A stretch of DNA of 64,000 nt from Ligula intestinalis (Eukaryota > Platyhelminthes > Cestoda > Diphyllobothriidea > Diphyllobothriidae), in assembly GCA_036362985.1 (NCBI GenBank), contig JAYGXS010000009.1, positions 12,491,629 through 12,555,628 on the forward strand. The letters are read 5' to 3'. The number at the start of each line of letters is the position of its first letter. The first letter of the stretch is position 1. The notes under the pieces are model-generated. The model worked only from the letters and a program-made list of their open reading frames with translations, was not told the DNA's origin and did no database searches. A program made the position numbers and the translations under genes. Below are positions 5,343 to 46,686 of this stretch, in pieces.

Positions 5343-8300
5343 ATGCTTCATACCTTGCAAAGATCATACCTTAAAGATGATACTTTCGTGGCCGCTACCC
5401 ACACCCCTGAGTCTGCCCTCGCAGCTTCGAATAAAAACTTTGTCCTCTTTGATATCAAAAAGTCACAACAGGCAGTCCACAAACGTCGTACAACCGACAG
5501 ACTCGTCAGCGTCGATGCAGCTCCCTTAGCCAACCGCTTCATGTCCTGCACGGAATCTGGTGTAGTCTCCCTGCTCGATTTAAAGTCAAAGAATTGTGAG
5601 GTAAATTGTATAAACCGTCTTACTTTGCTGCCCTAAAACTCCAACCATGCACAAGTTTAAATTTATGCGAAGCCCATTAGTGTGCAGTCTTAAAATCAAG
5701 GTGAACCGACCGCCTTCTCCTAAACAGCAGCTACGCACCAAGTGTGATGTATGAACCGGCACTTTATTCAGAGGTTGAAACGGGGAAGGAAAGGCTTAAC
5801 TGCGGTCTTGGAACGACTGGATCGTCCATTCCCTCCTGTCAACATGCTGCGATGTGTTACGGTCGCAACACTGATTTCGTGGTGCAGTGCGCTTTACATA
5901 TTCCTGACATTTTCACTCTCAACTTAGGCGTGAAAGTGGTCTCATGGCGGCAGCAATAAAGTTGGCCAACAATCTTAGATACTCCTAGCCCCCGGATTCG
6001 GTCTTACAGAACCGATCGTAATAGGAGTTTAATGGATTGGTCATATCAGGGGAAGGAAAAAAATAAACTATAAAGTAGAGCAAATAAGAGCAGAAAATAA
6101 TAGGAATAATTGAGAGTTCAAGTCTTCAATTTTTGCCTCAATCGACATTTGAGGGCTCATTGTTGGCTATCTGCACTGACTCAAATCACCTGGATCAGAA
6201 GAAGCATGCCCTAGACAACATATGTTCCGTTTGTTAATTATTGTTGATGAAAAATGCATGCATCATACAAAGGAAGATAAGAGAATCATACTGCTTTAAA
6301 TACAAGAAGTCATTATACAAGAAATATACTGACGAAATTTTTCCACTGGATGCAGACGAAATTATTCTCAAATTTTCCGACATTACACTTACTAAGCCAC
6401 AATCAGAGGCTTTATTACTGGGATTGGACTTTTGTGTCCCAAACAGACGAATAAACCCAGCTGAAATTGAGGCACAATTTGAGGACTTGAACTCTCAGCT
6501 TACCGACCTAATACCTAGGTCCATTGACGACTATGGCTGGCTTAAAGCAAAATTTGTGGAAATTGCTCACCAATAGGAATGATTATTGAGATGACTTAAT
6601 AATTGGTCTGCGATAATTGAAATGAGAAATGAGACTTCTGACGTGTACTGCCGTAGCAGCTAGTCGCTCTGTTTCATTACTTGACTTCTGATAACTTCTG
6701 TTATGTGTGCAACTCCAACTCCAAGGGGTTTTAGGAGACGATTGACGTCCACATTCGAAGCGCTCGTCAAGATCTAGGGCCGGTATGATTCGGTCTGTCT
6801 CGTTTACGCGTGCAAAATGGCGGATGAAGGCTCACGGATTGATTAGGGGACCCACTCGTGCCGTTCTGCCTTGGGGCTCGCTCTCGACTTCCCTCCAACA
6901 GCTGCACAGCGGCTAGTGTATTGCAGACAGATAGGTTAGAATGGTAGCCTGACCAAAGACTAGCAGCCTTGTCGGGTCTCCTAAGGCGTCGTGCCTGCCG
7001 CCCACCGCCACAATGATTCCTTTGTTCAATAGAGTTCTCTGGGCTGGGCCCAAGCAATGACCTTAGACCGGACGCGCATCAACTGGTCGCAGTTATCCCA
7101 GCGTAGTGTTTAGATTATTCCTAACGAGCAGCCCGGATGAACTCTCAGGTCACGCTATCGGTCCACCCCACATAAAGGCGTGGGCAGCCAATGCGGCAAT
7201 CAGGCCACAAGAGAACGCGCAGAAAATCTCTTATAAGCCACTGTCCATAGCAGACAGGGAGAGTTGCATCACACACCGGATAGCGAGGACATGCTAGTCC
7301 GCTCCCAATGCCGGCGCTTGCCCCCGAGGCGGGGCAAAGAGCGTGCTGGAGATAAACCAGCGGCAACATCCACCCGAGACAGCAACTTTGTTTTGTACAC
7401 AATAAACCCTCCTCCTGGTGGATTCCAGAATCATGCCCTTGTTATTGTGTTCTTCTTTGGGGATTTCAACAGGTCGTAATTCGACGGTGGCACACGGTGT
7501 CACACTGGCGACGCTGAACCACTCGTTATAACAAGATAAACGTTTCCGAAAAAGACTGGAAGACTGAAATGGCAATTTCTGACTTGCTGACTATCATCAG
7601 TCAGCCATATCCAGTCACAGAGAATGCATCACTCGACGATCGAACCTGCGACTTTGAACTCCTAATTAGCGGATCGTGGGTTCGAGCCTCGGGCGGGGCA
7701 CCTCCTGTGGTTGGGTATGGCTAACGGCTAATAAGCCTGAAATGGCCATTCCAGTCTCCTTTGTCTTATTCGGCATTGGCTTAATACAAATTTTGGCAAA
7801 ATTGAATGGATAACCGTTTGCCCTGACTGGGGAATTGCAATTATTAGGAAATTTGCGAAAATTCCCTTTACAAAATTCCGAAGATGAATTGGCAAACATA
7901 CGTTTGTTTTCGGTAAATTCTCGTCAGACCTTTACATTTATATTGTAATTAAGTAAGTAAACTATGAGGGTTGGTAGAAAAAATCGTACGATTGTCAGGG
8001 GAGTGGGAAGGGAGGATCGGCGTCAAAATCTGATCAGCGTTAGAGGGGAGGTGAAAAGCTGCTTTTTGCCCATGGTAACTGCGGCGCCGCGACGAAGTTC
8101 TTTTAGGCGCACAGGACCGGTCGGTGCCCCTAATTTATTGCCATATAAATGTAAAGGCTTGAGAATAATTTATCAAAAACAAACGTATGTTAGCCAACTC
8201 ATCTTCTGAATTACTAGTAACTTTATTTCGTTTCCGTGACGTGGTAGACGTGATTATTAATTTGCAGTTTGAACTATCATGATTGCTTCTGAATGCCCTT

Positions 8301-11300
8301 ATCGACTACACTAACCAGTGATCGATTTCTTTGAATTTCTCGTTCTGTTTAGCAGTGTACTTCGACCTCAGGGACTTTTGAATTGTTTTGCTTTCTGACA
8401 AACTGTGATAATTTGAGTTCAGCGATGATACCCTTTTGAGCATTCAAGAAACCAAGATAGCCGAACGAACGTTTTCTATTAATTCATCATCAGGCGTGTA
8501 CAATAATATAAAGGGGGTAGAGTTAGCAAAAGTTTGAACAACCAGCTAACGGTAATTAAATGTGGGGGAGGGGGAATTGTTGAGAGACCAAAGGGGGCAG
8601 GAGGAGGAGGGACGTGTCCTAAAATTAGTTCATATCAACTGGTCATCTTCTCTCTTGAGGCCAGTTTTCACAGTCTGCTCATCGCCTCGCGGCATGATAG
8701 CAGGTGTGCGGACGGATGTTGAGTTTGTTCTCGGCCACGCGAGCCGTAGGGCCACTACTAATGCCTTCTGCGCACATAAGATTGGGTTTGTGAGTCGTAT
8801 GGCGACGGCTTCTGTCGTCGCAAGTATCCGTTGACGCAAGAACTTAGAGTGTTTAGCCGGAACTTTATACAAGACTCGAAATGCTTAGTTTACGTCTACC
8901 CGGTGACCGCTGTCAACTAAAAGAACCAATATCGCACTAGATATTGACTTGACCTCGCCTTTGTTTAGCCAGGCAGGATGGTGTTCCCGCATGCGCTTGG
9001 AGAGCCGCCTAGTTGTTCGACCAATATAACTTGCCCCACTGGAGCATGTAAAGTTGTAGATACACATTGATGTGGTCTGGAACGGCAGTCTATCCTTGCC
9101 TTCAAGGCGAAGAAGTGGAGTGGTTGAAAATACAAATCTTAACTTAGCTGCTGGATACGTACGCGCGATTGCAGCGTTCAGGCGAAGCTGTAGAAGTTCG
9201 CTTGCTGGATCACCTTGAAATGGCAACGTAAGAAATAAGGTTTTCTTCTCAGCCGTCGGTACTTCCGATTTGGTGGACGTTCTTCCATAAACTTATTGAT
9301 GAACTTCTCAGAAAATCAATTTTCTTGTAGGGTGTTTTTAATGAGTACGAGTTCTTTCTCCAGTGTCCCTGGGGAACAGATTCTCCTGGCTCGGTTCTTG
9401 AGACAGCGAACTAGGCCTCGTTTCTGACTAAGTGGCACAAAACTGTAGAAATTAGTATATTGCCCTGTCCAGGTTTTCTTGCGAAATACACCTACTTATT
9501 GTTCCATCCGACCTTCTACTTAGAAGGACGTCCACAAAGGAGAGGCACTGTCTGTCCTCTTTTTCTAGAGTGAAGGTTACCGCTGGGTGCACCTAACTCA
9601 CTTTATTTAAGAAAGTGTCCAAGTCAATACTGCTGTTACAAATATATCGTCCACATATCTAGCATAGGAATGAAGATCCTTTATAATAGGGGAAAGTTCG
9701 TTGCTCTCCAGTTTGCCCATGAAGGCATCAGCTAAAATAGGTCCCAGTGGTGATCCCATCGCAACACCATCGATTTGGCCGTAAAATTGTCCACTAAAGC
9801 TGAAATGCACGTTTACCGTGCAGCGAAAGAGTAGTTCCTTTAGGTCTCCGATCGGCATGCCGATTGGAAAATCCTGTTTAACAATCTCGTCACACAAATA
9901 TTCTAAGGTTTCTGAGAGGGGAATGTTGGTGAACAGAGACGCAACATTTAAGGATAACATCGTTTTCTCCTTGATATTTGTGTTTCTTATGGACTCGACG
10001 AATTCAAACGTGTTTCGTAGGCTGTACGGTGCTATTTGGTGCCGAATCGGTTTCAGCTTTTCTGCCAGCCACTTTTCAATTGCAAATTCGCCATATCACG
10101 CAATCACAAGCCCAGTCTTGTGTGCGCAGAAAGCCTTTGTAGTGGCCCTACGGCTCCCGTGGCCCAGAAAAAACTCAAATCCGTCCGCACACCTATTACG
10201 CCGCGAGACGATGAGCAGACAGTGACAACTGGTGTCAAGAGAGAAGATGACCAGTTGATATGAATTAATTTTAGGACACGTCCCTCCTCCCCCTGCCCCC
10301 TTTGGTCTCTCAACAATTCCCCCCTCCCCCTTTAATTACCGTTGGCTGGTTGCTCAAACTTTTGCTAACTCTACCCCCTTTATATTATTGTACACGCCTG
10401 AGGATGAAACTGTGATTAATGTCCTAGTGCATAACCTTCTACTAATATTAATTCAGGCCATTTCTTCGCGGCCCGGCAACGAAAGCCTCCCATGCCCCGC
10501 AAGCTTTACGTGCTGTGCTATAGACCCTACATCTCGCTACCTTTGTGCCGGGACAGACAGTGTCGAAGATGACATCTCGAAGAAGAAAAAAAGGCAGAAA
10601 TTAGAAGAGGACGACGACCCTCAGGCTCCCATTTTGGTTTGGGATGTCCGCAGTCTCACGCAGCCTCTTTCTGTTCTCTCCGATATACACTCAGACTGTG
10701 TAACCAACCTGTCCTTCGATAATAGTTCCCGCCTACTGAGCTCATCGGAGGATGGTCTCGTCTGCGTCAGTGACGTTAAGGCTTCTCCCGAGGATGCCCT
10801 TCTTCAGGTGAGCTTCATACTCCTTGGACGAGTCAAGAATTAACTAACAACAAATGTCCTACTGATATCATAACAGTAGCCTTATTATTAAACAGGCTTT
10901 CAATGCTGAAGCGCCGGTTATGTACTGTGGCTGGTTATCACCGGACAAGACGGCCGACTCTGGTGTATACGGCTTGAGCAACATGCGGCTGAGATTCCAA
11001 TGTTGGCCTTGGGTGGACCCAGAGCAAGAAGTGGCGGCAATTGCGGATGATGGTTGGCGCAAATTGAAACGCACCTACCACGAAAAAACATTGCTCTCGG
11101 CTGTCCGTCTGCCCGACACATTTGCACGTCTGTCTGCGGAGCGAGAAATGCCTGATTTGCCCGATTATCCCGTGATCTGCATGTTAAACACAGCTGACGA
11201 TCGGTTCAACCTGAGAGTGTCTCTACTGCGACCAGGAACCTCCACATACCTTGCGTCGCACCGCATGCAGTCAAAGACGATGGACACGAAATCGGCCATA

Positions 11301-11399: not shown

Positions 11400-12135
11400 T
11401 AGCTAGTTGTTTCTAAGACATAAACTGTAAATATACATATATTTAAAGCGTTTCTCGAACGAATTCTTTTGTGTCTGCCTGCTCCTACCGTTCTGCAAAG
11501 GTTAGTTGCGGGATACCTGTGCATTCCGGCATGCAACTCGTTGTGTTTGGCCTTATTAAATTGAAAAATCAATGATCTGTGGTATTCACTCACAAAATAT
11601 AATGACGCAGATATCAGAGGCTGAGGGTAGTTCGTTCTGTGCGCTGGGCAAGTGCTGACATTCGCAAATCTCAAAGGATACAAGCTACTCACCTCGTGGA
11701 CGCGTAACTTACGTGGTGAGCGTAGAGTGCTATTGGGCAAGTAGTTTTGCCATCGATGGCCCACTTTTGGACGGGTAGGGGTGGAGATGGGGCTTGATTT
11801 GCACTTTCTGCCTTAGCACATCATAAGCGGCAGAACAAGGTGCTGATCCAGTTTTGTGTCTCGTGCACGTTCACATCTTAAGTAAAGATCTGGTTGACGG
11901 AAGCATTCCAGTCTGTCTTTCTCGACGCGTCGTCTGGGATGTCCTTAGTTGTGCTGTCAATGAAGCGGGTTTATGTCCATCTCTGGGTGGCTGGTCAAGC
12001 CTGACCGCTAATGAAGATGGTAGGTGGTCATGCAGGTGTGTGTCTTAGCCCATTGTTGGATTAGGAATCTCCACCGGAATCCCAATTGGGAGTAGTTGGG
12101 AGGGGGAGAAAAGCCGAGATCTCGACCGGCTTGAG
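11400..12135. other. Downstream flank of WDR89, no gene seen
   Basis: An ATTAAA-type signal occurs near 11553 and could serve polyadenylation of WDR89, but no signal stands out. Nothing else was recognised. Confidence 0.4.
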
Positions 12136-12861: not shown

Positions 12862-12998
12862 TTTGCCTGCAACCTCCCTGGCGTGGTTATGCAGGTAGGC
12901 ATAGCCTACGATTACGTGGGGTTACTTTGTTCGATGGGCAGAGTGATTCTCAGAAGCCGACTCCACGCTGAGAACATGTCCCCTGGCCGTGGTTCGAA

Positions 12999-15120: not shown

Positions 15121-15540
15121 GGTATAAATTGGACGGCAGTCATGCCAAGAAATGTAATTTCAAGGAGGCACTTGTCAAGAAACCGATTTAATGGATCCTG
15201 TTAAATCCAAATTAGTATGTTCCATAGATCTCCAACATAGTCTGTAAAGTAAACTAATCTTTATATACGACCTTTTGTGAGAATGTAGCGTAGGTTACCT
15301 ACTGCAATGAATATTCGATTTGTCTACTATGGCTGAGCAAACGCTCGCAGGCAACAGCTTTGTCTGTCGCATTTCTTTTACTAATTTTTTGGTACCTATT
15401 TTTTACAGTGGCAGATAAGCGAACACCGATATATTGGACGACACACTCGTCTGTCCGGGATGCCTTTGGAGTTCATAATCGAGCCTATGCTGCAAAAGGG
15501 CTATTGATATAAACAAAAGGGCATAACCTTCAAAGACAAG

Positions 15541-15690
15541 AGAGACTAGGATCGCCATTTCTGGCTTTTTAGCAATCGTCAGCTAATCATATTGAACTCA
15601 AGTTTTGTCCCTAGAAATTGGTTTCCTGCTTTAGTTTCGAACCCAGGACCTTGTTAGTCAGAAATATGAGGCTCTAACCACTGCAAAAAA
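15541..15690 (-). mobile_element. tRNA-headed SINE with an intact-looking hammerhead ribozyme
   Basis: Minus strand, 5' to 3': GCAGTGGTTAGAGCC (A-box-like), GGGTTCGAAAC (B box), a spacer, then the ribozyme core at 15588-15544. Stem I is GAUUAG paired with CUAGUC (six pairs, one G-U). The core parts are CUGACGA and GAAA. Stem II is GCU/AGC with loop AAAA. Stem III is two pairs (A-U, U-A) around loop GGCG. The cleavage triplet is AUC. All invariant residues of a type I hammerhead are present. This matches the minimal hammerheads known from PLEs and schistosome Sm-alpha SINEs. Activity is inferred. Confidence 0.75.
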
Positions 15691-15992: not shown

Positions 15993-18900
15993 GTGCTGTC
16001 AAATTTTTGTCCGTCTCCATCAGCACCGACAGCTCCCTGCATGCAATCTCACGCAAGAGGCAACCGCCTGCATAAAGTGATGAATAAGTCTAAATTGAGC
16101 TTTCTTTACACTAATGCCCAAAGACTTCCCTCAAAAATTGATGAACTCAAGGCAGTACTTTCGGAGCGGAAACTTGATTTAGTTGCCATAACGGAAACGT
16201 GGCTCAAAACAGAAATCACAGATTCGGAGATTTCGGTTACAGCATACCAGCTTTTCCACAAAGACCGCCAAAACCGAGAAGGAGGTGGGATTGTCGTGTA
16301 TGTCAGAACTGAAATCTCTGTTGTATAAAGAGAACACACTGTAGCCCAGGAGTATGAGTCCGTCTGGTTAAAGATCAAGAAGGCAAATTCACAGAACCTT
16401 GAATTCCTGGCCGTTTACCGGCCACCGAACATTCTGAGTGGAGCCGACGACTCGCTCCTTGGTCTGGTGAAAGAAGCTGCTAGCCACCAGGAGGTTCTCA
16501 TCGTTGGTGACTTCAACGCCCCTGCAATTGAATGGAACAACCTGACAGTGGAGGCGGCGTCAACTTCCTTGAGTTCCAAATTAATGGATCTCACGCTTGA
16601 CCTATCTCTAGTTCAGAACGTTAAGGGCATAACCAGATTTCGAGAAAACCAGCGGGCTACTTGTTTGGATCTCATTTTCATGAAGGATTCATCCTACATA
16701 GATGAGGTGCATTCAAGTGCTCCGCTCGGTAAGAGTGACCATACGACGCTACTGTGGGATTACTCACTCCATACTCAACGGCTGAGGAAAACGGAGCACC
16801 AGCCAAACATATGGAAGGCAGATCTCAATTCAATGAAGAGTGCACTATCGTCCGTGAATTGGGACTGCCTACTCAAGGGGGATCCGGAGAAGGATTGGAG
16901 ATCACTCAAGAGGGTTGCATTAGATCTGATTAAGCGCTTTTGTCCGGTGAAGGTACAAAAGACGGCTATTCGTTCTGCCTGGTTGACGAGAGACCTTGAC
17001 AGGCAACTGAATAAGAAGAATAGGAAATGGAAGTAATTAAGGAAAACTGGGTCGCCAGTACACCTCGAGGAATTCCGGCACCAGAGAAATGCAGTAAAAA
17101 ATCAATTCGCCAGGCCAGGAAAAACGATGAATCAAGAATCCTCCAACAGGCTGAAGAAAAGCCCAAAATTCTATTCCGCTATAAGAACAGTAGATTAAAA
17201 AACAAGGACCCTGTCGCAGTACTTAAGAATGATGATGGTGGAGAAGTCGTTGAGAATGACGAGAAAGCCTAGTACTGTAGCCGGTTTTTTGCCTTGGTAT
17301 TTACTAGGGAAACCGAGCTTCATTTTGATAATGCCAACAGTGCTGTTGTAAACGCTGGTCCAGCACTTCATTATCTACTATTTCTAACATCTGTAGTTGA
17401 GAGGGAGCTGCAGAGCCTCAAAGAAGCAAAGTCATCCGGTCCAAACAATATACCAGCCAAGTTCTTGAAAGAATTGGCAAGCAAACTCTCAGAGCCCCTA
17501 GCACATATTTTTCGTTCTTCATTTGAACTAGGCAAATATTTACCCGATTTACAAGGGCGGAGCCCGAACGAAGGTCAAAAATTACCGGCCCGTCAGCCTT
17601 ACTTGCATTTGTTGTAAGGTGATGGAAACGATAATTAAAAAGGCGACAATGAAGTTCTTGGAGGAGAACAACCTGCTGTCAGGGCTCCAACAAGGCTTAA
17701 GAAAGAACCATTCTTGCCTTTCCAGCCTTCTACTCTCCACTGAGCAGTGGACTCGCGCACTAGATTAAGATGGTAAGGTTGACGTCATCTATACGGACTT
17801 CAAGAAGGCATTCGACAGCGTCCCACATAAGCGTCTAATGTATAAATTGTCAGAAATTGGCATAAGAAGAAACCTGCTGGCATTGATCACAGATTTTCTC
17901 AGAGGGCGATCGCAAACTCTGTGCATCGGTGACTCAAAGTCAAACCCTACATCTGTTCTGAGTGGCGTCCCCTAAGGCTCTGTCTTAGGACCACTGCTCT
18001 TTCTTATCTATATCAACGACTGTGTCAACGACCTGGGTTGCAGCGCTATCATGTTTGCCGACGACGTCAAACTCTGGAGAGCCATCAGGTCTGACGCCGA
18101 TGGGATAGCGCTTCAAGAGAGTCTCAATCGACTTAGCTGCTGGTCTGCTCGTGGGCTCTTAAACTTAAACATTAGTAAGTGTGTGGTTTTAAGACTCCGT
18201 ACTAGAAGGACTGATGAGGAAAACGATTCCTTCCAATGCCTCCTCGATGGGCACCCGCTTTCAACTGTGAACGAAAAAAAGGTCTCGTTGTTCTAATAAA
18301 TTCCTCACTTAAACCATCTACTCAGTGTGTAAAGGCAGCTAAACGCGCGACACAGGTGCTGTTTGCGATTTGGCGGGGATTAGTCAACATTGACAAGGAG
18401 CTCTTCAGGAAAACCTATGGAGCGTTTGTTTGGTCCCATTTGGAGTATGCTGTCCAGGCCTGGCGTCTTTGGTTCAAGAAGGATTACCTGCACCTGTAAC
18501 GAGTGCAGGTGAGGGCTACGAAAATTTGTCAAGAATCTTGGTCATCTGCCTTATGAAGACATACTGACCGAACTTGATCTTTTCCCTCTCAATTATAGGC
18601 AACTCCGCGGGGACCTGATACAAACCTGCCGTATTGTTAGAGGCCGAGACTGCGACCTAGAATTTGATTATTTCTTCGAATTGGCTCACACTGACCATCT
18701 GCGAGGTCATCCTTTTAAACTACAGAGGAAACCGGCCCGTATCGACGTTCGACGAAACGCCTTCTCTCAGAGGGTCATTGGAGCGTGGAACGGACTCCCG
18801 GAGCATGTGGTCCTCTCAGATACTGTTGACATTTTTAAACACAAACTTGATTCTCATTTGCTGAGATACTGTGGCAGATATAATGAACAAAGTGTCAGTA

Positions 18901-30500: not shown

Positions 30501-30524
30501 ATCATCGCACCCAGCAGTTAGGCT

Positions 30525-31636
30525 GAAATTGAGAAGAAGAAGAAGATTCAATCGCTGGGACAACACTTTTATTCGCCTGACGTTTCGACATCCTTCGTGG
30601 ATCCTTCATCAGAGACATGAGCAGAAATCAGTAGCAGAAGCGGATAGCTCATGCACAGGAAATTGCATTATTTATAGGATGCAGTCATAACTGCACACTT
30701 ATGACAACGAAAATTAACGATAATTGCCCTCTTGTGCGTTAATGGCTTGGTGACCAGCATGTGGGTCGTGAAATGCTGAACTTTAATCACGCGTGGTGAA
30801 AATGGATGTGGTGATTGCTCGGCCAACTGGTTCCCCGATGTTGGCGTAAAACGACGCGGTGGCCTTTGCGTTCCCCAAGTGGCGACTTGCCATGGCCAAA
30901 TTAAGCCTCGACACCGAATATGGATTAGGAAAGTCGTTGCACTTTTTTATGGACTGTAGGCCCGTGAACCCTGACTCAAGTAATTCTCGGCTCACACGAT
31001 TTCCATCTCCTGCTAGAATTTTGACCTTGTGGGATACGATGAGGTCTGGCCAGTTAATAGGCAATGGAACGTATTCCAACGAATATAAACTGGTGGATGG
31101 GCTAAGGCGTGAAAGGCCATAGTGTCAGGGAGAATTTACTAAGGTGGAACAAGCGTAGAATGTAAGTAACATGCAAGTGACTCCCAGACAAGTGCAGTCC
31201 AGCCATGAGTCGGCCGGTGTCCAGAGTTGCATTCCGGCAAATAGGTCGCCAAGTCTGGAGGTCTGCAACCGAACAGTAGGTCGTCTGGTCCGGGAGTGAT
31301 TGAGCGTAAACAACTCCCCCGCATCTTAGAATAAGGGGTCGCTAAAACCTCATCAAATTTCAGTGTTTAGCCGGATCTCGTCAAATAAGCCGAAACTTAG
31401 GCATTGGCATCATTTCACCGGACTGCTGCCGCGTGTTCGGCAATTTGCGTCTTGAAATGTCTGCCAGTTTCCCCGACGTAGTTGCTTTGTCCGCAGCTGA
31501 ACCAGAGCTTAAAGACGACAAAAAATCAGGAGTCCTCTATGCTAATGTCTCTGATGAAGAAACCGCGACGGCTGTCGAAAAGTCAGGCGCATAAAAGTGT
31601 TCGCCCCAACAATCGAATCTTTTCCTCAATTTGATT
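30525..31636 (-). mobile_element. PLE 3' part with inverted tails, containing a nested solo LTR
   Basis: The minus strand carries decayed GIY-YIG C-terminal coding (KILAGDGNRVSRELLESGFT, NDFPNPYSVSRLNLA, about 31020-30880), interrupted by a family-B solo LTR (31028-31346) and resuming near 31350. The left tail (30618-30525, minus) has CTGATGAAGG, an ATCC/GGAT hairpin, GAAACGTCAGGCG and ATAAAAGTG. The right tail (31544-31636, plus) has CTGATGAAGA, GAAAAGTCAGGCG and ATAAAAGTG. It is thus an inverted copy of the same 3' end. The arrangement equals that of 8483-10409. Confidence 0.75.
31028..31346 (-). mobile_element. Family-B solo LTR inside the PLE, 4-bp target duplication
   Basis: Starts TGTGGGATACGATG and ends GGGGTCGCTAAA on the plus strand, matching the LTRs at 58555-59021 and 59706-60171 but with internal deletions (319 bp versus about 467). 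ACCT at 31024-31027 and 31347-31350 flanks it exactly, and the PLE coding region resumes on the far side. This is direct evidence for insertion followed by LTR-LTR recombination. Confidence 0.85.
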
Positions 31637-31639
31637 ACT

Positions 31640-33881: not shown

Positions 33882-33891
33882 GAGTCCATCG

Positions 33892-37375: not shown

Positions 37376-37739
37376 AACCTCGAAGATTGGGTCCAACTGA
37401 CTGGCTGTGCAACGGCTACTCGTATTCTCGGTAATCCGAACCTTAGGGCGCTGTATTGTATTACCACAGCTTCGTCACGGCATGATCGCAATGACCTCTG
37501 AAGGAATACTTTACAGGATCTAGAAATCAATGTTTGCGAACATAGAAACGATGAAAGGGTGTTGATTGCTTGACTGTCAGACACGGTATTCTGATTTAAG
37601 GAGCACTTGTTTCAACTCTTGAATATCAAAAACTCCGCTTCCTCCGCTGTACTGCATTTTAATGACACAGCACAGCAACCATGACTGCCGTTGCATTTTT
37701 CGGCCATTGACTCTGCTGCTTCATCAGGGTTATATATGG

Positions 37740-37850
37740 CCATTGCTGCTTTATAAGCCTTCGCCAGTCAGTCATACCCAACGCCAGGTTGCACGACTAC
37801 TGAGGCCATTCCCCTGGCTATTCTAGTCTTCCTTGTCTTCGTCAGTAATG
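37740..37850 (-). mobile_element. SINE remnant with a mutated hammerhead core
   Basis: The minus strand has GTTGGGTATGACTG, then GGCTTATAAAGC and AATGGCCAT, the family 3' region. Both CTGATGA and GAAA are mutated. Confidence 0.5.
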
Positions 37851-37997
37851 TTCTTCTGTCTGTAATACTGGTCTCTCTGCGGCTGCTCTTGGGTGTAGAG
37901 AGTGGACCCCAACGAGTACGAGTGAGCCCTATAACGGATCGTTGAGCGCTTAGCTACCACTGTGTATATTCTCAATCGTAGCCGGCAAGGCAACTAG

Positions 37998-38125
37998 GCC
38001 GTGGTGCAGTGGTTCGAAGGTTGGACTTCTGCCTAACAAGGTCGCGTGAGTTCGAGCATCGGGGGTGACTTCCCCTGAAATGGTCATTCCACTCCCGGTG
38101 TTGTCATTCTGCCTAGATCATTAGC
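37998..38125 (+). mobile_element. tRNA-headed SINE with good A and B boxes
   Basis: TGGTGCAGTGGTT (A box) and GAGTTCGAGCATC (B box) lie at pol III spacing, followed by CCTGAAATGGTCATTCCACTC. The last part keeps GAAA, a two-pair stem III with loop GGTC, and part of stem I. The 5' half of the ribozyme is deleted. Confidence 0.65.
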
Positions 38126-38232
38126 TGCTGTGCAGTGGAGCTCGATATTGAGCCCAAAGGCAAAAAAAGTGAGTGAGTTGCCTTGGCTTTCTGTGTTTCC
38201 ATCAAAGACTGACGCAAACCGGCAAGAAAATG

Positions 38233-38365
38233 AGTTCGTGGTGTAACAGATTAGACAATTGGACTTCTGATGTACAGATTGTGGGTCCTAGCCTCGGGTA
38301 TCGCAACACCTGGAGTTGAGTATAACTGTCTGAAGACAGCCCATAAACGGAAAAATTGCCCGGTT
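38233..38365 (+). mobile_element. Second SINE-like copy, decayed
   Basis: TGGTGTAACAG (A-box-like) and GGGTCCTAGCCTC (B-box-like) precede ATAACTGTCTGAAGACAGCC, which keeps a CTGAAGA half-core. The GAAA half is degraded. Confidence 0.5.
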
Positions 38366-38450
38366 ATTTTCGGCTGAACAATTTTTGGAATACTCCACGC
38401 CCATCGCTGGTAAAATTCTGTCAGGCCTACGTGTGATGGTTCCCTCCCCC

Positions 38451-38822: not shown

Positions 38823-38930
38823 CGCCTTCCAACATTATTAATATGTACGAGCGCAATCGACAGGACAACGAACCAGTGGCTCAATAACTAGAGCGTTGAA
38901 CATCTAACGAAAAGATCGAAGGGTTGAGCA

Positions 38931-39284
38931 TATCTCAGGGGTTAAAGTAAGTTAAACCCTAGCACCTGTGGTCTTCAGGCTCGGCTCCTTAGTAGTAGAG
39001 AAGTCATGGAAGGCCAGAATGGACAGAACAGTTTATTCTGTACAGAAGAAAGGGCAGAATAGGCAAGAAGAAACTAACTGTCAAAAGACCACACAAACGC
39101 AAGCCAGTGAATGGCGTCTGAAGTGATGTCTGCTCGGCAGTCGTCACATGGGGTCCTGTGTGAGTCGGCTTGTGATTGACTCCTCTAGAGGCCGGAAACA
39201 ACAAGCATTCACGAGTGTGCGTTCAACCGGAGCTAGTCGCGAAAAGTGTTCACGGGTGCACTTCATGTGGACCTAATTACTACA
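38931..39284 (-). mobile_element. Diverged family-A solo LTR
   Basis: Begins TATCTCAGGGGTTAAAG and ends AATTACTACA, with GTAGAGAAGTCATGGAAGGC in between. It lies 108 bp from the LTR at 38451-38822 in the same orientation but is too different to be its partner. Flanks are AGCA and AGCT. Confidence 0.65.
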
Positions 39285-40029
39285 AGCTTGAAGGCTTGCA
39301 CAACCTAGAGCCGGTTATTGCGGATGATAACGGCTAATAGGCCGGAGATGGTCATTTCCTTCCTTCCGATAATGTTATTCCACCTAGCCTAGTCAGTAGC
39401 TGCGTTCACGCTCATTTCCAGCCGTCTGGGCGTTTTGGCGTTCGATAATTATCGGTCTAAGGGAAGAGGGGTGAGATGGATGCCCTGAAAGTCCATTTAT
39501 TTGCAAACTAACATGTGCGTAAGTCGTGACAGTGCCTACTCCGGCACGCTAGTTTTCCGAGGTCTTCTCTAAACTGATGATGGTGTGGCGCTAGCGATTC
39601 TGGCTTTTGAGGTCCCAGAGATAAGGGCAGTCAAAGTTAAATCGAAATTTAATCTCTCAATAACGAATGTAATCGTCTCAATTTTCGCTATTAATGACAC
39701 CCTTCCTCCCGGCTCTAGTAGATGCTGAAACTCTGAATTCAGTGGAAAAACTCCGTGAGGTAGAGGTAAAATTGCCGATGAGATCACCTCAAGTGGCACG
39801 CGCTTCCCCTGATTTTTCTCGACATCTCTGAAGTCGAAACGAGCTCAGGCCGGAGAGCAAGCTGCAAGCACGTGAGATCACCGTCAGGGCAGTTCTCCTA
39901 CGCAGGTATCCCCCCAACAGGTCTCCATAACCCAGGTGTTTGTGCTCCATTATCTGAACTCGTCCACTTAACGTTTATATAGCCACGCAGTAACCGAACC
40001 AGCTAGCTGTGCTTGTAGGTCCAAGAAAG
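39285..40029. other. Mostly unassigned; SINE remnant at 39300-39420
   Basis: GATGATAACGGCTAATAGGCC and GGTCATTTCC near 39325-39365 are the decayed 3' core of the hammerhead SINE. The remainder shows no gene or shared repeat. Confidence 0.45.
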
Positions 40030-40110
40030 CCACAACTGACAAAGACAAGGAAGACTGGAATTGCCGTTTCTGAATTATTAGCTTTCATCAGTTAGCCAGC
40101 CAGCCATGCC
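40030..40110 (-). mobile_element. SINE 3' region with a hammerhead core
   Basis: Minus strand, 40097-40053: GGCUAA, CUGAUGA, AGCUAAUAAUU (weak stem II), GAAA, CGGCAAUU and CCAGUC. Both conserved core halves are intact, but stem I keeps only about four pairs and the second pair of stem III is lost. Activity is doubtful. The tRNA head is not clear. Confidence 0.6.
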
Positions 40111-40610
40111 TAACATGTGTCCGTGGCCGTCTTCTACCAGTGGTCGACGGCGCAGTCGCTCACACAGGCCCAGACCTTACTGTCAATCAATTGCTTCCGC
40201 CGCGCGTGACTTGGCCCTGCCGTGGCAGCAACCTTACCAATACTCAAAGCCGATTGGTCGAATGCGGACAAAGTCAAGGCACGCGCGCATGCTTCGCGCG
40301 GAATTTAACGGCCTGCAACGACTGGCGAGGACACCTGCTGCCGTTGCTTTCTGAATTTTGCACCAAACGTTGTCCTTCTTCTCTCTACCCTTCTTTCCTT
40401 TGACTTTTGAGTCGGAAAACCCCGAATTGTCCAGCCATCGCATCCTTATTTGCGACTGGACGCCTGGGCTTTGCGGTGCGCCGACCATACTGCAAAATCG
40501 ACCTCCATAAGAGAGGGCGAGAGAGCGGAATATTCCACTTTCTTCAGCCATGTTGTCAGAATGCACACGAATAAATGAAAATTTGTAAGTTTTCATAAAA
40601 AAAATGTAAA

Positions 40611-41587
40611 GTACGGCTCCGAATTCGAGCGACATGCCGATAGCTGCGAAATATCGATACTCACTTGCTAAACGGCAATGACTAAGGCTGTAATACTGAT
40701 TATAGGGTAGCCGATTCTCAAGTCATTTCAGTCAGGATAGGATGCCGGCTTTTTAATGCTTTTCTTTCTGACCGCTAATGAAACACTTACTGTGAAAATG
40801 GCTATTTAAATAGTACGTATTTCATCATTGATTATGACTACTTTTATAAATTCAAATATATTTTATGAAAATATACACGAAGCATTTTTTCTTGCACCCA
40901 TTTAGTAGAAAATTATGCCTTCTTTATTTTTTTACTTGAATAGGGGTATCCTTCGGTGATAAAACATTTATAACTTGCCGAATAATTTTGAAACCTACCG
41001 ATTAGTTCACCTGAATTCAAGGCTTAAAAACTGCGTGCTGTATACATCCTATTTGATGAAAAGTACGTTTTTGCCTACAGTTTGACGAAGAAGTCACATA
41101 GTTCTCATAAAATGTTGCAGTGTATGCGGATCATGCTCTGTACATTATAGGCAGCATTTATAAATTTACGGATATTATGTATTATGAATGAGCATTTCAC
41201 GATCGTGAAAAATCTCATCACTAGAAATTTTGTAAAACCGAAGGATACCCTTTCTTTCAGTTTAAAATTTAAAGAAGGCGTAATTTGCAAAAAACGAGTA
41301 CAATAAAGAATTTTTGTGCGAGTTTTCCACAAAATATATTTGAATTTATAAAAGCAGTCAAAATCAACGAGATAAATGCTTTTTATTTACGTAGCCACGT
41401 TTTACAGTACATACTTTTTGTTAGCGGTCTGAAAAACAAACTCTTGAAAAAGCCAGACATCCAATCGAGACTGCAATGACTTGACAATGAGTTCCTCGAT
41501 AATTAGTATTACAGCCTTAATCAATGCCGTTTGGCAAGTGAGTATTAAGCTCTCGCAAATGTCAACATGTCGAATTCGGAGTCGTAC
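40611..41587. mobile_element. Long-arm foldback element F, copy 2
   Basis: The arms of about 370 bp (40611 to about 40985 and about 41220-41587) are inverted copies: GTACGGCTCCGAATTCG against GTACGACTCCGAATTCG, then TACTCACTTGC.AAACGGCA, AAGGCTGTAATACT, CTTTTATAAATTCAAATATA and GGGTATCCTTCGGT. The spacer of about 235 bp is non-coding. It aligns with 32719-33492. The arms are far longer than ordinary MITE TIRs, hence foldback-like. Confidence 0.8.
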
Positions 41588-42111
41588 GGCAATTATTAAG
41601 GGAACAAATCAGGTCTTAGTTTTTGCATTTTGGTCTTTTTCCACGTGAGATATCACGCTGGAGATTATAATACGGAACCGTTTAGGGTCACAGCACGTGT
41701 GACAGCAAAACTTTGCAGTAATTAATTCCGGATTCAGAACAGGATTCAGAAGTTGATCAAAAAATCGCTTGACTTAGTGAAGTGTCGTTGCATTAGTTTT
41801 TCAACTAAACTGACACAAGAAACACCGACATCAGAATAGAGTATTTAAGGGGAGCGTTTTATGATGAGACTGTGAAGTTCACTTTGACTCGACCTAGTCA
41901 TGACAAGTCTATTGGCTGACGCTTCGGAGTCTCATTCAAATGTACTACCAGAAACAGACGACGATAATTGTAATGGAGCCACAACGAGTCCGGTATCAAT
42001 AACACATAGTCGCCACGCGGGTTTCAGCCCCAAAATCGGCAAAGCCCTGTTCGAGATGAGACTGGCTTTTGGCTGTTAATGAGCCAAAATTGGCCATGCC
42101 ATTTCCCCTTC

Positions 42112-42336
42112 TTATGGAGGGATGAACCACTGCTGCTGAAGATCCGGTTGCAATGGTCTCCTCGCAATGCGATCCTTACGGCACCGCGCTGAATTACGGA
42201 TAATCTGGTCTGTGTACGCGGACAAGGGTGCTTGATGGTTACCACATTCGGGCACGCTCATGCAGTTGTCACCTCTTGTGAGGATTTCGGCCTCATTAGA
42301 TTTAAAAATATGGCCGGGTGCCACCGAATGAGTCAC
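42112..42336 (-). mobile_element. PLE GIY-YIG C-terminal fragment
   Basis: The frame reads APGHIFKSNEAEILTRGDN, matching the GHIFKFDEAEI..RGDNR block of the PLE at 45422-45658. It diverges after GDN. Confidence 0.6.
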
Positions 42337-42516
42337 AACCTAGGAACTAGGGTTTTTCCTTTTCCTTATCACCACTGCTGCGTGTTTGGCCATTCGCGTG
42401 TAGCGAAATCCTTCATGGTTACCTGACGTACTTAATTGATCCACAAATGCATCATATCCAGCATAGGGAACGAGGAAATTGTTCTGGGCAGAAGCGGGAC
42501 TTAAGGTTGAAAGATC

Positions 42517-42916
42517 TATCGCAGGGAGTTAAGTGAGTTAAACCCGGCAACTGCGATCTTCAGACCATGGTAACTTAGTAGAAGTCATTGAAGGCCAGAG
42601 TAGATGGAAGAGTATATTGTGTGCACAAGAAAAAGGAGAATAGGTGGAGGAAGTCTGGCTTGGTGAGCCTACGACCCGCAGGAGAGCCAGCCGCAGTCCA
42701 AGTGAGGTCGTAGCAGCAATCAGGCCAGAAGACAGAGAGAGAGCGCGTCCATTGGCTAGGTCGGCCTGTGATTGGTTGGACGGCATGTTGTTTGACACCG
42801 TTGTTGGACAACGTGAGTGGCCTGTATCTCGCACCAGTAAGTCCGGCGACCGCAACGACCTTGAGGTCTGCACGGATTGAGGCCACGAATGGAAGGGCAG
42901 GCAACGACTCACTACA
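42517..42916 (-). mobile_element. Family-A solo LTR with perfect 4-bp target duplication
   Basis: The plus strand runs from TATCGCAGGGAGTTAAG to CACTACA (400 bp). GATC flanks it directly at 42513-42516 and 42917-42920. This is a textbook solo LTR and supports both the LTR boundaries and the 4-bp duplication size of the family. Confidence 0.88.
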
Positions 42917-43094
42917 GATCCACTACCAGATTAGGAAACCACTGGAGTCATTTACTGGATTTGGTGTGATTTTGGACGAGACAAATACGTTGGAAGCACC
43001 GGGGGGTCACCTTGGACACGAATGGCTGAGCATCCAGAAGCGGGGATGTATAAATACGTTGGTTTTGAGGTTGCGGCTCCTTTGACGGGACTCG

Positions 43095-43325
43095 GTGAGT
43101 TTCGTGTTTCGAGAAGACAAAACCCTCACGAGCAATGACAACCGCGTGAGCCGTGAGCAGCTCGAGTCACGGTCCTCAGGTTCACAGTCCATCAATAGGG
43201 GCGTGCTGAAACTTTGCCTAAGCAGGGGCCATCGGTCCTGTGGAGAAGGCGCGGACGACCAACGCTTCCTATTGCAGCAAGCCAAATTGCCGAGGAATTA
43301 TTGCGCCAACGTCCAACAGGGATGA
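43095..43325 (+). mobile_element. PLE GIY-YIG C-terminal fragment
   Basis: The frame contains NDNRVSREQLESRSSGSQSI, matching the DNRVSRELLES block of other PLE copies here. The upstream nuclease core is missing, and the downstream frame ends at tandem stops. Confidence 0.55.
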
Positions 43326-43659
43326 TAAAATCGCGGCAATTAAAGACTCAGACGCGGACTGCCAAGCCATTATCGCAGCAATCACGACCAGCCAGCTCTG
43401 ATCGCAGGAGCCGCTAATAACAGCACGCATATGGTCATTGCGTTCGTACCGACATCTAGTATAGCCTCTTGTTTGCTTGCATTAGCGGAAAATTGTGGTG
43501 GATGTAGCTAGCGTTAGGCGCATCGTTGATGAAGGTTCACCGAACACTAACGGAATTCACCTGTCCCTTACTAAACCAAGCTATCGATTTATATCCCGTC
43601 TACCAAGGGCTCTGTAATAGGCTCACGTCCACTGAAAACGGGGTGAAAGTAGTCATGTA

Positions 43660-43989
43660 GGGCCAACAGCCGACACCTACGAAAGAGGAAGGCAGCAGCA
43701 ACTGAGAGCCATATGACCTGAGCCACATGCTTTCTCGCAGAGGCACCGAAAGCACTGCGAGCGAACACTAACGGCCGATTGCTCTACGGCCTCGCGAGGG
43801 GGAGGCTGATGAGCAAGCCACACAGGGCCAGCAGCCTCGCGGGAATCAGGCGGCAGCGATCGACAATCATATGAACGGTGCGGCATGCTTTCCCACGGAG
43901 GAGCCGATAATGCTGCGAGCGAGAACCCACGGTCGATCGTTTCACCGCCTGACGAGAGGAACGCCGGTGTGCAAGCTGACGCCATGGCA
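43660..43989. repeat. Diverged tandem duplication, 165-bp unit x2
   Basis: Units start with AGGGCCAACAGCC (43660) and AGGGCCAGCAGCC (43825). They share GGCAGCAGC/GGCGGCAGCGA, CATATGA, CATGCTTTC.C and CTGCGAGCGA. The unit is GC-rich and its function is unknown. Confidence 0.65.
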
Positions 43990-44424
43990 ACCACGATAGG
44001 AGCGTAGGGAACAAAGGCGACCCGGACCCGCTATTGGTCGGTCGCAAAAACTTAAGAGCCAACCAGCGGCCACCAGACAGGCGGACGCACGTGCAGTGAG
44101 CACCGATAGCGCTGACGGCTCGCGGCAAGGTGGATTTATTCAAGGTCTACGGAAGATAAAGCACGGTACTTTGAGGATGGAGGCGAGTGAGCTTTTGAAA
44201 CGTCAGTCAAAATGTTCTTTGGCCTATGAAATTGCCCCCTCTTCGGGAGATGATGCACACGATATGATGTCTGGACCTCGAATCTTCCAGCATATATACA
44301 TGCATAAATGCAGGTGTTTCAAAGATCTAGTCAAGGAACACTTAAGTTCCGCTTTGTCAAGGAGCTCGCAACGCAAACCCTCCAGACCGTCACCGTGACT
44401 AGGGTGATATGATGAAATGGATGC

Positions 44425-44577
44425 GACAAAGCAAAAGGAGACAAGAATGGCCATTTGTGGCTTATTAGCCGTCATCAGCCAGTCATACCCAATTTCGAGG
44501 GTTGGCACCCCCGAGATTTGAACCCGAGACCTTCGGTCATTGTGTTCAGTACACTAAATCTAGTCCACGGGTCCCTT
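44425..44577 (-). mobile_element. Hammerhead SINE, left member of a head-to-head pair
   Basis: The minus strand has a tRNA-like head with B box GGGTTCAAATC, then GGGTATGACTGG, CTGATGA, CGGCTAATAAGCCA with a perfect GGCU/AGCC stem II, but CAAA in place of GAAA, then TGGCCATT and CTTGTC. The G-to-C change at the invariant core position should abolish cleavage. Confidence 0.7.
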
Positions 44578-44617
44578 GATTTGTGGGTTGTCATCGGCAA
44601 CATGATGAATGAATACA

Positions 44618-44775
44618 GACTAGTGGACTAGAGGTATTGTCCTGAACATAATGACCGAAAGTCTCGGGTTAAAATCTCGGGGGTGCCAAACCTCGAGATT
44701 GGGTTTGACTGTCTGATGACGGCTTATAACCCAGAAAGGGCCATTGAAGTCTCACGTAGCTTTGTCGGATACACT
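44618..44775 (+). mobile_element. Hammerhead SINE, right member of a head-to-head pair
   Basis: The plus strand has a tRNA-like head (AGTCTCGGGTTAAAATC, B-box-like), then the core at 44707-44751: GACUGU, CUGAUGA, CGGCUUAUAACCCA, GAAA, GGGCCAUU, GAAGUC. Both conserved core halves are intact. Stem I keeps GACU/AGUC, stem II has one mismatch, and the second pair of stem III is lost. Confidence 0.7.
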
Positions 44776-44792
44776 TCACATACATATATATT

Positions 44793-44879
44793 TATATATT
44801 CACTGAGGAATGTGCGAACACCGATCGAATAGGCTTCCGAACTAAACAAAGTTCATGTGGTGGTCAGAGGTCCCCAACG
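44793..44879. repeat. Direct repeat, left copy (about 87 bp)
   Basis: Matches 45168-45254: ATATTCACT.AGGAATGTGC, CGAACACCGATCGAATAGGC and GTGGTGGTCAGAGGTCCCC. The copies flank about 290 bp that include a damaged hammerhead SINE core (minus, 44997-44976, with perfect GGGCU/AGCCC stem II but GACA for GAAA). Confidence 0.75.
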
Positions 44880-45167
44880 GGTGACCGCCTGCCAGGCCGA
44901 TTCCACCCAATTCATCATAGCAGTAAGGGGGGTGGGTATGACAGCATTTGGGGGTAACTTGATGCAGAACTGTGTCGGGCTTATTAGCCCTCATCAGCCA
45001 AGCATAACCTTGAACACCAGCTGCTCGGACAACACAAACAAACGCACTCACAGACGGCGCAGTTGGTCCACCACTGGTGTCTATCAGGTGGGTCATAAGC
45101 ACTACATCGAACCGCAATTCATCAGCACCTCGCCACCTGCTATTTGCTGTCACTGCTGATCGGGTAT

Positions 45168-45254
45168 ATATTCACTCAGGAATGTGCGAACACCGATCGA
45201 ATAGGCGTCCGAACTCAACAAAGTGCATGTGGTGGTCAGAGGTCCCCAACGAAC
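45168..45254. repeat. Direct repeat, right copy (about 87 bp)
   Basis: Partner of 44793-44879 with about five differences. Too long for a target duplication; either short LTR-like ends or a local duplication. Confidence 0.75.
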
Positions 45255-45361
45255 ACTAGGCGCAGCAAACACAAGTTTGACGAACTCTTTCATGCATGAA
45301 GAATGCATCGGAAGTAGTCAGCCGCCTACACATCCCACTTGGAGTTAGAGTTGTGCACAGG

Positions 45362-46095
45362 CTATAAGCAACCATCAGGCGCCAGGTCATAAGACCGAAA
45401 GACCCACTGCCACGGCAAGAAATGGCTGAAGTCGTTTACCAGATGTGGCGCAGTTGTGGACAAAACAACTGCGTCGGAGAAACCAGAATATTTCTCCGAA
45501 CGCGAATGGTCGAGCATGCAGCGGCGGTGAGGAAGAAAGACACTAACTCCCAGGTTGCAGCTCACACAACGGGACGCGGCCATATTTTCAAGTTTGACGA
45601 GGCCGAAATCTTCGCAAGAGGTGACAATCGCGTGAACTGCGAGCTGCTGGTGTCATGAATCTCAGGCTCCTAGTCCATCAACAAGCGCAGCCATCTGACG
45701 TTCCCATATGGTGTACTGACAAGTTTCCTGAGCATGAGAGAATCGGTCACATGGAAAAGGCCGGGCGCAGCAAAAACTCTGACGACAGCTGGCATTATTT
45801 TCACGCAATTATCAGGCCCGCATCCAACGCTGACAAGGCAACTGTGGCAATTAGTGAGTCGAACGCGAAGTGCAAGCCAGTACCGCATCAATTAAGACCC
45901 AAGCGGTGACGACAGAAGTGAATAATTATCACACACACGCGGTGGACCACTATGAGCTATGAATACCGTGCAACCTGTGCATACTTCAACCCTATCTGCA
46001 CATGACCATGACTTTGTTACTATCACTTTTGATCAAGGATTCTTGATGGAATCCGAATCGTTAGGACAATAAAATTCTTGTTCCCGTGATCGCAT
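45362..46095 (+). mobile_element. PLE 3' part: GIY-YIG nuclease and 3' UTR
   Basis: The open frame 45422-45658 reads VVYQMWRSCGQNNCVGETRI, LRTRMVEHAAAVRKKDTNS, QVAAHTTGRGHIFKFDEAEI, FARGDNRVNCELL. It is a nearly complete GIY-YIG domain in which the usual Y of YVGE is C (NCVGE). The stop at 45656 truncates the usual C-terminus. The 3' UTR ends near 46030-46090 with a decayed form of the PLE tail (AAGGATTCTTGATGGAATCC, GGACAATAAAATTCTTG). The RT is absent upstream. Confidence 0.7.
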
Positions 46096-46229
46096 CCTCT
46101 TCTTCTAAACTGCTTCCAGGAACTCGCATATTCTTCATTGTTGGCAATGCTTTAATGATAAATGTGACAAGGTTTCAGCATCGCTAGTGCAAACGCAATT
46201 CAGCCCACGAACTGGATCCCTGTTTTTCA

Positions 46230-46332
46230 GGAAATGACGCACGCGATAAGATATCTGGACTTCTAATATTTGATTATGCATATTAATCTGCGCGAATATT
46301 TGGGGTCCAGATATCATATCGTGTTCATCATC
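46230..46332. repeat. Inverted repeat with arms of about 40 bp
   Basis: The left arm, GGAAATGACGCACGCGATAA, continues GATATCTGGACTTCTAATATTT. It is opposed by the right arm, which in reverse complement reads GGATGATGAACACGATATGA, then TATCTGGACCCCAAATATT. The spacer is about 22 bp. The arm also occurs singly at about 44240-44280, so this is two copies of a repeat end in opposite orientation. Confidence 0.65.
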
Positions 46333-46641
46333 CTTGGAAGGGGAAGAAAAAGGAGAGGGGCAAGTGCTGCTGACATTTCGAAAACATGCTCATTACAATC
46401 GTCAGAGCATGGCGCTTACTCTTCCACCACCTTTGAATTAATGCGCCTCACCACTAGCCTCATGTTGTAGCCGTGCCTGATGTTCGTGCGTTCGTTAGCC
46501 CGTTAACCGTTTGTTGGCTCCATCTTCTCCACTGTAATAAGCATTGCGTTAGCGTGCTCCCCGGCCTCCCCCTCGTTCACATACTTGAAAAATATCGCAG
46601 AGGCGATTGCAAGATCCCTGTCGTAAACTGGAGTAGAGTAT

Positions 46642-46686
46642 TCCCAGCTGACGACGACAAATAAGCCAGAAAAGGCCTATCTGGAG
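46642..46686 (+). ncRNA. Hammerhead ribozyme core of a SINE
   Basis: CCAG (46644-46647), CUGACGA, a weak stem II (CGACAAAUAAGCCA), GAAA (46669-46672), AGGCCUAU, CUGGAG. Stem I pairs CCAG with CUGG. Both conserved core halves are exact. The base before the cleavage position is A instead of U, so activity may be lost. A tRNA head was not clearly seen upstream. Confidence 0.5.

Follow-up and report, generated by a model that had tools for sequence, protein, structure and literature searches.

Does a short sequence that recurs on both strands of a 64,000-nt stretch of the tapeworm Ligula intestinalis genome (contig JAYGXS010000009.1, positions 12,491,629 to 12,555,628; hereafter the window) belong to a mobile family carrying a hammerhead ribozyme (HHR), or does it only resemble one? 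A first-pass annotation of the window had proposed the former, namely a tRNA-headed short interspersed element (SINE) with a minimal type I hammerhead. This proposal is borne out for the family as a whole: the heads are tRNA-like, the stems covary, the core is constrained and some copies form tandem units. Judged from sequence, the main family, which we call class A, is probably a high-copy, non-autonomous, SINE-like retrotransposon of the metazoan retrozyme/Sm-alpha kind that carries a type I hammerhead. By its architecture, it seems to be one more example of the kind known from blood flukes and salamanders, not a wholly new one.

In the source genome of 644,354,889 bp, the exact core CTGATGA-N14-GAAA occurs 11,313 times (5572 + 5741), against 372 (196 + 176) for the same pattern read backwards. 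Within the window, the plain pattern with up to two mismatches is mildly enriched (36 versus 23.1 expected). Exact-pattern scans of viral contigs and of a genome contigs collection returned no match. Copies were collected from sampled loci (given L-numbers below) comprising 20 stretches of 5.4-10 kb, 20 of 801 bp and 20 of 0.4-1.8 kb. Nearly all loci are centred on listed exact-core places, so that the core is present in them by selection; L041 and L053 are one place fetched twice, and L054 is without a listed place. Loci and window together make 61 sequences of 285,243 bases, with 119 profile matches at E<1e-3. The 105 matches that were aligned comprise 90 of class A and 15 of a second family, class B. 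From class A, we derived a non-redundant set of 80 copies, each less than 93% identical to the others, and an alignment, A2, containing 66 of the 69 near-full-length copies; the remaining three (window 40036-40113, L021 4645-4724 and L038 242-309) were omitted by judgement on account of insertions or decay. Mean pairwise identity in class A is 73%.

The class A consensus reads GGG-UAU-GACUGG-CUGAUGA-CGGCU-AAUA-AGCCA-GAA-AU-GGCC-AU-U/CCAGUC-U-CCC, with the predicted cut after AUU or AUC. Stem I has 6 bp and is continued through a UAU/U internal loop by an outer helix of 3 bp; stem II has 4 bp above a mostly mismatched base; stem III has 2 bp and the palindromic loop GGCC. The outer GGG/CCC helix beyond the internal loop of stem I had been missed by the first-pass annotation, as had a borderline copy near 38314. 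The hammerhead-type core (CUGANGA ... GAA, A15.1-U16.1 and H17) is present in the family, though many single copies are changed in it. Under the hammerhead pairing, A2 has 41 cells altered on both sides; shuffled alignments average 20.7 (sd 3.9), and none of 500 reaches 41. The covariation score is 0.233 against 0.180 shuffled (0/500), and 78.6% of cells are paired against 28-57% when the pairing is slid along the alignment, slid scores being 0.053-0.133. The number of pairs with a double change, 13, is not unusual by itself (69/500 shuffles). When stems are taken separately in the 80-copy set, double changes exceed the shuffled values in stem I (20 versus 10.8, 0/500), stem II (11 versus 6.0, 6/500) and stem III (4 versus 1.1, 7/500), and less clearly in the outer helix (9 versus 5.1, 37/500). 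Kinship among copies inflates counts of this sort; placed on two rough trees, the changes on both sides require 29 or 35 origins, spread over 13 of the 16 pairs. Compensatory changes, which the first-pass annotation had suggested looking for, are thus present in stems I, II and III and weaker in the outer helix; three compensating stems with an open stem I are what characterises type I. The seven-copy alignment of the window has covariation in stem I and the outer helix and none in stem II.

We then consider the catalytic core. The exact-core copy nearest the centre of each locus was dropped, leaving 42 class A copies with at least 45 aligned letters. In these, changes at the 11 invariant hammerhead positions number 47/457, compared with 423/2392 at the other positions (Fisher 6e-5; column permutation 0.014). 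The set has 12 exact-core copies, nine of which lie outside the window and are mostly listed places. Leaving out the exact-core copies outside the window gives a 33-copy version that is biased against constraint, in which the figures become 47/358 (13.1%) and 368/1872 (19.7%), with Fisher 0.003 and column permutation 0.042. In the 8 copies of the window, which the motif itself had brought to light, core changes number 5/84 versus 89/444 elsewhere. N7, which is free in hammerheads, is the most variable position of the heptad (20-25%), and position 17 across class A copies is T in 66, C in 17, G in 3 and A in 1. As far as an alignment of genomic copies can tell, the core is constrained. A strict descriptor identified 28 intact hammerheads in the 285 kb (18 of class A, 10 of class B) and none in the backwards sequences; since the loci were selected for the core, these 28 matches give no density.

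The remainder of the unit was defined from the sequences flanking the hammerhead. Of 89 class A copies, 48 have upstream a B box that matches at 7/8 positions or better; among 85 control stretches taken downstream, 1 has. In L068, ARAGORN reads a tRNA-Arg(tct) directly 5' of the hammerhead domain, the tRNA ending where the domain starts; this head scores 43.6 bits with the Rfam tRNA model (gathering threshold 29), the one such case among the four loci given. The family thus has the tRNA-like head of a tRNA-derived SINE, as scored on the B box. For the body, a profile of about 127 nt was built from six stretches found behind hammerhead tails; it has 34 matches. Of these, 21, the six seeds among them, begin behind a hammerhead tail, and 10 have another hammerhead in the 260 nt that come next; 6 matches (two being seeds) have a hammerhead on either side, and 9 on neither. 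Direct class A pairs at 272, 274, 286, 291, 311, 316 and 317 nt point to a unit HHR-body-tRNA-HHR; other direct spacings are 57, 96, 115, 238, 361, 394, 396, 401 and 648. Type I hammerheads in direct tandem repeats of about 150-450 bp, the retrozyme arrangement, do therefore occur, with only 14 of 42 close pairs being direct. Concerning the ends of the unit, the young copies, namely both arms of L046 (71-465) and the right L028 arm (to about 5080), have GTCGGATCCACTCC as their last letters, with (AT)n beyond. In L046 and L028, the stretch 5' of the tRNA head (CCGACAAAGCAA...) is similar to the 3' tail (...TTGTCTTTGTCGG) when the latter is read as its reverse complement, which could allow the ends of a unit to pair.

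A number of observations weigh against class A being a working hammerhead retroelement. The consensus hammerhead fold has an energy of -12.7 kcal/mol (-15.0 without stem III), against -18.2 for the minimum free energy (MFE) structure, a competing fold that is better by 5.5. Unconstrained RNAalifold picks a different inner fold for 7 sequences and no structure for 66. None of the Rfam hammerhead models has a match in the window at the gathering threshold, and class A in nine loci gives no hammerhead match even at E<=5. Three slid controls (-3 to -1) have 38, 31 and 33 double-change cells against 41 for the hammerhead pairing, and 11, 14 and 13 pairs with a double change against 13; the double-change count alone is thus weak evidence. 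The 10.1/11.1 pair at the base of stem II is a standard pair in 20 of 79 copies and C.A in 51. G12 is changed in 12 of the 42 copies of the core test, and the entire exact core is kept in only 12. Although the exact core is present in 56 of 79 gapless copies (45 having been selected for it), 16 of the 79 rate as competent by rule, and no window copy passes the strict descriptor, which requires all stem II pairs except the base one. Most copies of the window and sample look dead. ARAGORN reads a tRNA in only 1 of 59 loci. Tandem partners often come from different subfamilies, and L049 holds two tandem units whose tRNA heads differ and which are therefore not simple copies of one circle. Copies also extend past the cut site, by about 32 nt in both L046 arms and the right L028 arm, indicating that the template RNA of these arms was uncut there and that cleavage is not required for every insertion.

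Part of this would be expected if the domain were a conserved SINE 3' structure, a recognition stem for reverse transcriptase that merely resembles a hammerhead and in which stem I and the outer helix matter, not the core. Most of the covariation does lie in these two helices, the more stable inner fold is not the hammerhead one, G12 is often changed, and copies running past the cut site imply uncut templates. We nevertheless regard such a structure as an unlikely explanation, since stems II and III covary in the hammerhead manner whereas the inner helices of rival folds covary more weakly or not at all, since core positions are constrained, with N7 the freest and position 17 rarely G, and since class B, which has different stems, keeps the same core. 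Among the rival helices that were scored, the hairpin CTGGCT/AGCCAG is 83.1% paired, yet its double changes number 3 versus 3.0 shuffled in A2 and 3 versus 3.9 in the 80 copies; with no excess of double changes, this pairing reflects common consensus letters. No excess is seen either for the MFE inner helices (1 versus 0.8, and 8 versus 5.2, 70/500) or for the helix picked by RNAalifold in seven sequences (7 versus 5.2, 134/500). In the seven window copies, the MFE structure is above shuffles (8 cells versus 3.0) because it includes stem I and the outer helix. As for Rfam, the best hammerhead score, 25.4 bits with HH9, belongs to class B and compares with a gathering threshold of 52. The first-pass annotation had staked its claim on a joint outcome, holding that it would fail if no model matched above threshold and the stems did not covary; no Rfam hammerhead match lies above threshold, yet the stems covary, and the hammerhead finding therefore stands. 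It could still be, and we give this a lesser but appreciable chance, that the hammerhead is a fossil, formerly genuine, whose source copies are inactive and which spreads, or spread, as an ordinary SINE, an account that overlaps with the hammerhead retrotransposon that we favour. The small share of gapless copies competent by sequence, none of them in the window, and the 73% mean pairwise identity speak for it. The youngest-looking copies, namely both L046 arms and the L028 copy at 4692, speak against it, as they have intact hammerheads, the other arm of L028 having CTGATGT.

The arrangement of neighbouring copies raises a different issue. The ten-kb loci and window hold 22 adjacent matches closer than 450 bp, versus 5.2 at random (maximum 12 in 1000 trials). 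Across all loci, the 42 close pairs divide into 21 head to head, 7 tail to tail and 14 direct. In these loci, which were picked around matches, the head-to-head share within 450 bp has p 0.0004 versus one quarter; the preference of head to head over tail to tail has p 0.013 in all loci and 0.14 in the ten-kb set plus window. Such inverted pairs lie at L046 71-465, L028 4617-5071, L045 377-724 and, in the window, 44413-44779 and 7535-7785. Were the pairs themselves the real element, class A would be an inverted-repeat DNA transposon or miniature inverted-repeat transposable element whose arms contain hammerhead-like sequence. That head to head is the commonest close arrangement would then be accounted for, as would L046, where the arms have identical domains and the pair is bordered by (AT)n on both sides. 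This is very improbable, given that a comparison of 16 head-to-head pairs shows closely related arms in L046, L028 and L012 and mostly not elsewhere, that the junction spacing ranges from 26 to 398, that unpartnered copies and direct pairs occur, and that the tRNA head suggests copying through RNA. For a retrotransposon with a hammerhead, the pairs might instead result from an unusual, double-ended target-primed insertion, for which a Penelope-like enzyme that uses RNAs with hammerhead tails is a possible agent: each end of a broken target would serve as primer on the 3' tail of a separate RNA, and the two cDNAs would be joined head to head. This idea is speculative and rather doubtful; it would explain the class A excess, and also the head-to-head layout seen in one example each of class B (L028 5163-/5236+) and of a Penelope-like element (PLE)-type motif (L012 87-/293+). 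If true, the hammerhead-plus-tail would be a common recognition signal of all three families.

How might a hammerhead SINE of this kind propagate? We propose that a unit of about 272-317 nt, made up of the body (about 127 nt), a tRNA-like RNA polymerase III promoter, a linker and the type I hammerhead, would be transcribed by polymerase III from the tRNA-like head, and that multi-unit transcripts would cleave themselves at each hammerhead. Cleavage would probably proceed better as a dimer formed via the self-complementary AUGGCCAU, or with protein help, either being proposed because stem III is tiny and the competing fold more stable. The pair that would extend the palindrome in the dimer (columns 43/46) has no covariation (1 versus 1.1), and the dimer idea therefore draws on the palindrome and the published relatives alone. 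Monomers with 5'-OH and 2',3'-cyclic-phosphate ends would be released and then ligated into small circular RNAs, and reverse transcription would be provided in trans by the enzyme of a Penelope-like element or of a long interspersed element (LINE).

Comparison with published elements places class A among known kinds. In Schistosoma, Sm-alpha and Sj-alpha are described as SINE-like elements with a tRNA-derived head and a type I hammerhead, estimated at more than 10,000 copies; in S. mansoni, the Rfam hammerhead motif led to about 38,500 blastn candidates, the hammerhead lies at thousands to tens of thousands of places, and Sm-alpha resembles tRNA-Gln(TTG)-derived sequences (PMC2770079). Class A, compared by architecture only, is like Sm-alpha in its tRNA-like head, type I hammerhead, high copy number and SINE-like nature, and unlike it in that its one readable head is tRNA-Arg(TCT), its stem III has 2 bp and a palindromic loop, and the Rfam models miss it. 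On this architecture, it fits a lineage-specific relative of Sm-alpha. In the literature searched, no hammerhead SINE from a non-schistosome flatworm was found among the titles and starts of abstracts that were listed. Among the axolotl retrozymes, HHR_Amex1 has a helix III of a single pair with a palindromic tetraloop, and HHR_Amex2 has a helix III of two pairs with a tetraloop, and its helix II has U.U mismatched at the base; the same source mentions retrozyme-like repeats in platyhelminths (PMC7229834). Class A resembles these in its HHR-to-HHR tandem units of about 300 bp, its weak stem III and its mismatched stem II base, and the self-complementary loop is a further likeness to the dimer-acting salamander hammerheads (PMC7229834). 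It departs from metazoan retrozymes, which seem from what is said in PMC7761336 to be promoter-less, in having a tRNA-like promoter and close partners more often head to head than tandem, and its circles are inferred. Minimal hammerheads of PLEs are described with a stem III that is very short or absent (PMC11167929, PMC6155905, PMC7761336). For one in Anolis, cleavage is reported as absent unless protein is added, and its authors likewise concluded for this element in vitro that cleavage is not always required for insertion (PMC11167929). The W elements of S. mansoni have hammerheads with an extremely short stem III for which functional evidence is reported (PMC8490949); class A, likened to them by description, is also a flatworm repeat with a minimal stem III, whereas W elements are satellite-like.

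Turning to the copies of the window, a covariance model built from 66 family members has ten matches there at E<=0.01. Five of the six copies named by the first-pass annotation are in its training set (40036 being excluded) and an earlier profile was built from seven window copies, so that E-values and profile scores of these copies are partly circular; the independent evidence is the whole-genome count given above. All six named copies are present where they had been placed, 44707 and 46642 on the plus strand and 7562, 15544, 40053 and 44440 actually on the minus strand. That ten or more copies share A and B boxes is too strong a claim: an exact B box (GGTTCRANNC) precedes three copies (7679+, 15643- and 44524-), 7/8 matches precede two more (7562- and 44707+), and ARAGORN found no tRNA in the window. 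Similarly, an exact hammerhead fold had been claimed; the hammerhead pairing covaries in the family, and the wording is too strong for the window copies. With one stem II mismatch allowed, only the copy at 15582(-) has an intact catalytic core (shuffles give 0.01 exact matches per window). When the descriptor is relaxed to three stem II pairs and one stem III pair, an intact core is found at 44713+, 15582-, 7600- and 30612-, the last being a member of another family and not of class A.

The highest-scoring domain (44424..44494, -, 79.4 bits) has stem I GACTGG/CTTGTC, CTGATGA and stem II CGGCT/AGCCA, with CAAA in place of GAAA, so that G12 is changed (to C at 44478-). Its tRNA-like head (44504..44575, -, B box at 44524) has a mascRNA-like tRNA fold at the sub-threshold score of 17.9 bits (E 0.49). 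Head to head with it is the domain 44697..44768 (+, 74.1 bits), whose head occupies approximately 44618..44696 (+, B box 7/8); the inverted arms, 44413-44573 and 44618-44778, are 83% alike. The best preserved copy of the window (15527..15598, -, 66.4 bits) has 6/6 stem I pairs, intact catalytic core positions, the cut triplet AUC and one stem II mismatch. Its tRNA-like head lies at about 15600..15690 (-), with an A-box-like GTGGTTAGAG and a B box at 15643, and directly 3' of the hammerhead tail the next unit starts with a body segment (15401..15525, -, 95.0 bits, one of the six profile seeds). Another head-to-head pair is formed by 7546..7616 (-, 65.9 bits) and 7709..7773 (+, 59.3 bits, B box 7679); the latter, which had been listed as a decayed copy near 7711, is a family domain from which a 7-nt gap removes most of CTGATGA. 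The domain at 40036..40105 (-, 50.7 bits) has broken stem I and II pairs, and no B box was found in the 300 nt upstream. That at 46632..46696 (+, 48.1 bits) is diverged, with stem I TCCCAG/CTGGAG and outer helix TAGAG/CTCTA, several pairs being off consensus on both sides. More decayed class A domains lie at 39325..39356 (+, 22.2 bits, E 0.0009), 42049..42121 (+, 18.5 bits, E 0.0098) and, borderline, 38314..38373 (+, CTGAAGA, 16.1 bits, E 0.045). A domain truncated in stem III (37736..37790, -, 32.6 bits) stands head to head with the 3' half of another (37816..37855, +, 16.6 bits), which is followed by a body at 37846-37968(+) of 66.5 bits. A further body segment (38102..38193, +, 57.5 bits) comes after a possible remnant domain at 38074-38091, which alone is not significant.

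The decayed copy near 44976, which had been counted in the main family, belongs to class B, whose stem III is different (44953..45009, -, GACA for GAAA; model 30.1 bits; Rfam HH9 21.2 bits, sub-threshold). Class B shares with class A the UAU/U loop, the core and GGCU-AAUA-AGCC, and has its own stem I (GCUUGG/UCAAGU), outer helix (GGGU/ACCC) and 3-bp stem III (ACA-GUUC-UGU), with the cut after GUA. Its hammerhead fold has an energy of -13.1 versus an MFE of -16.5. Rfam HH9 scores it at 20.6-25.4 bits in six places, and the class A covariance model detects it at 27-34 bits, spanning the whole hammerhead. It is the more homogeneous family; copies lie at L017 4461-4517(-), 5003-5059(+) and 5366-5404(+), with direct spacings of 361 and 401 in L017, and at L010 4747-4803(-). 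The stem II letters AGGCTAATAAGCC, typical of class B, occur in 21 of 100 listed exact-core places.

Minimal hammerhead-like motifs reading ...GAAACGTCAGG were also seen, at 30612(-) and 52065(-) in the window, at L012 87(-)/293(+) and at L019 1934(+)/2260(+). We take these to be of Penelope-like type; class A differs from them in its tRNA head and its stem III. Near the 52065 motif, an open reading frame (ORF) at 52585-53064 on the minus strand, without a Pfam match, is presumably PLE-like as well. A protein search using one window ORF had no match. Elsewhere, the ORF 10388-10843(+) has a Pfam WD40 match at the cut-off (27 bits) and is probably a host gene exon, and 16467-17036(+) is a LINE-type endonuclease piece (Pfam Exo_endo_phos_2, 45.5 bits).

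Taken as a hammerhead retrotransposon, which we consider probable, class A is an abundant hammerhead SINE to set beside the classical one of schistosomes, and it indicates that standard Rfam models can miss such a hammerhead family. Its copies form a large natural alignment of a tRNA-promoted hammerhead with a weak stem III, on which it may be tested why genomic hammerheads persist in retroelements, including whether cleavage acts in monomers or dimers, whether circular RNA is made, and how such hammerheads are linked with Penelope-like enzymes.

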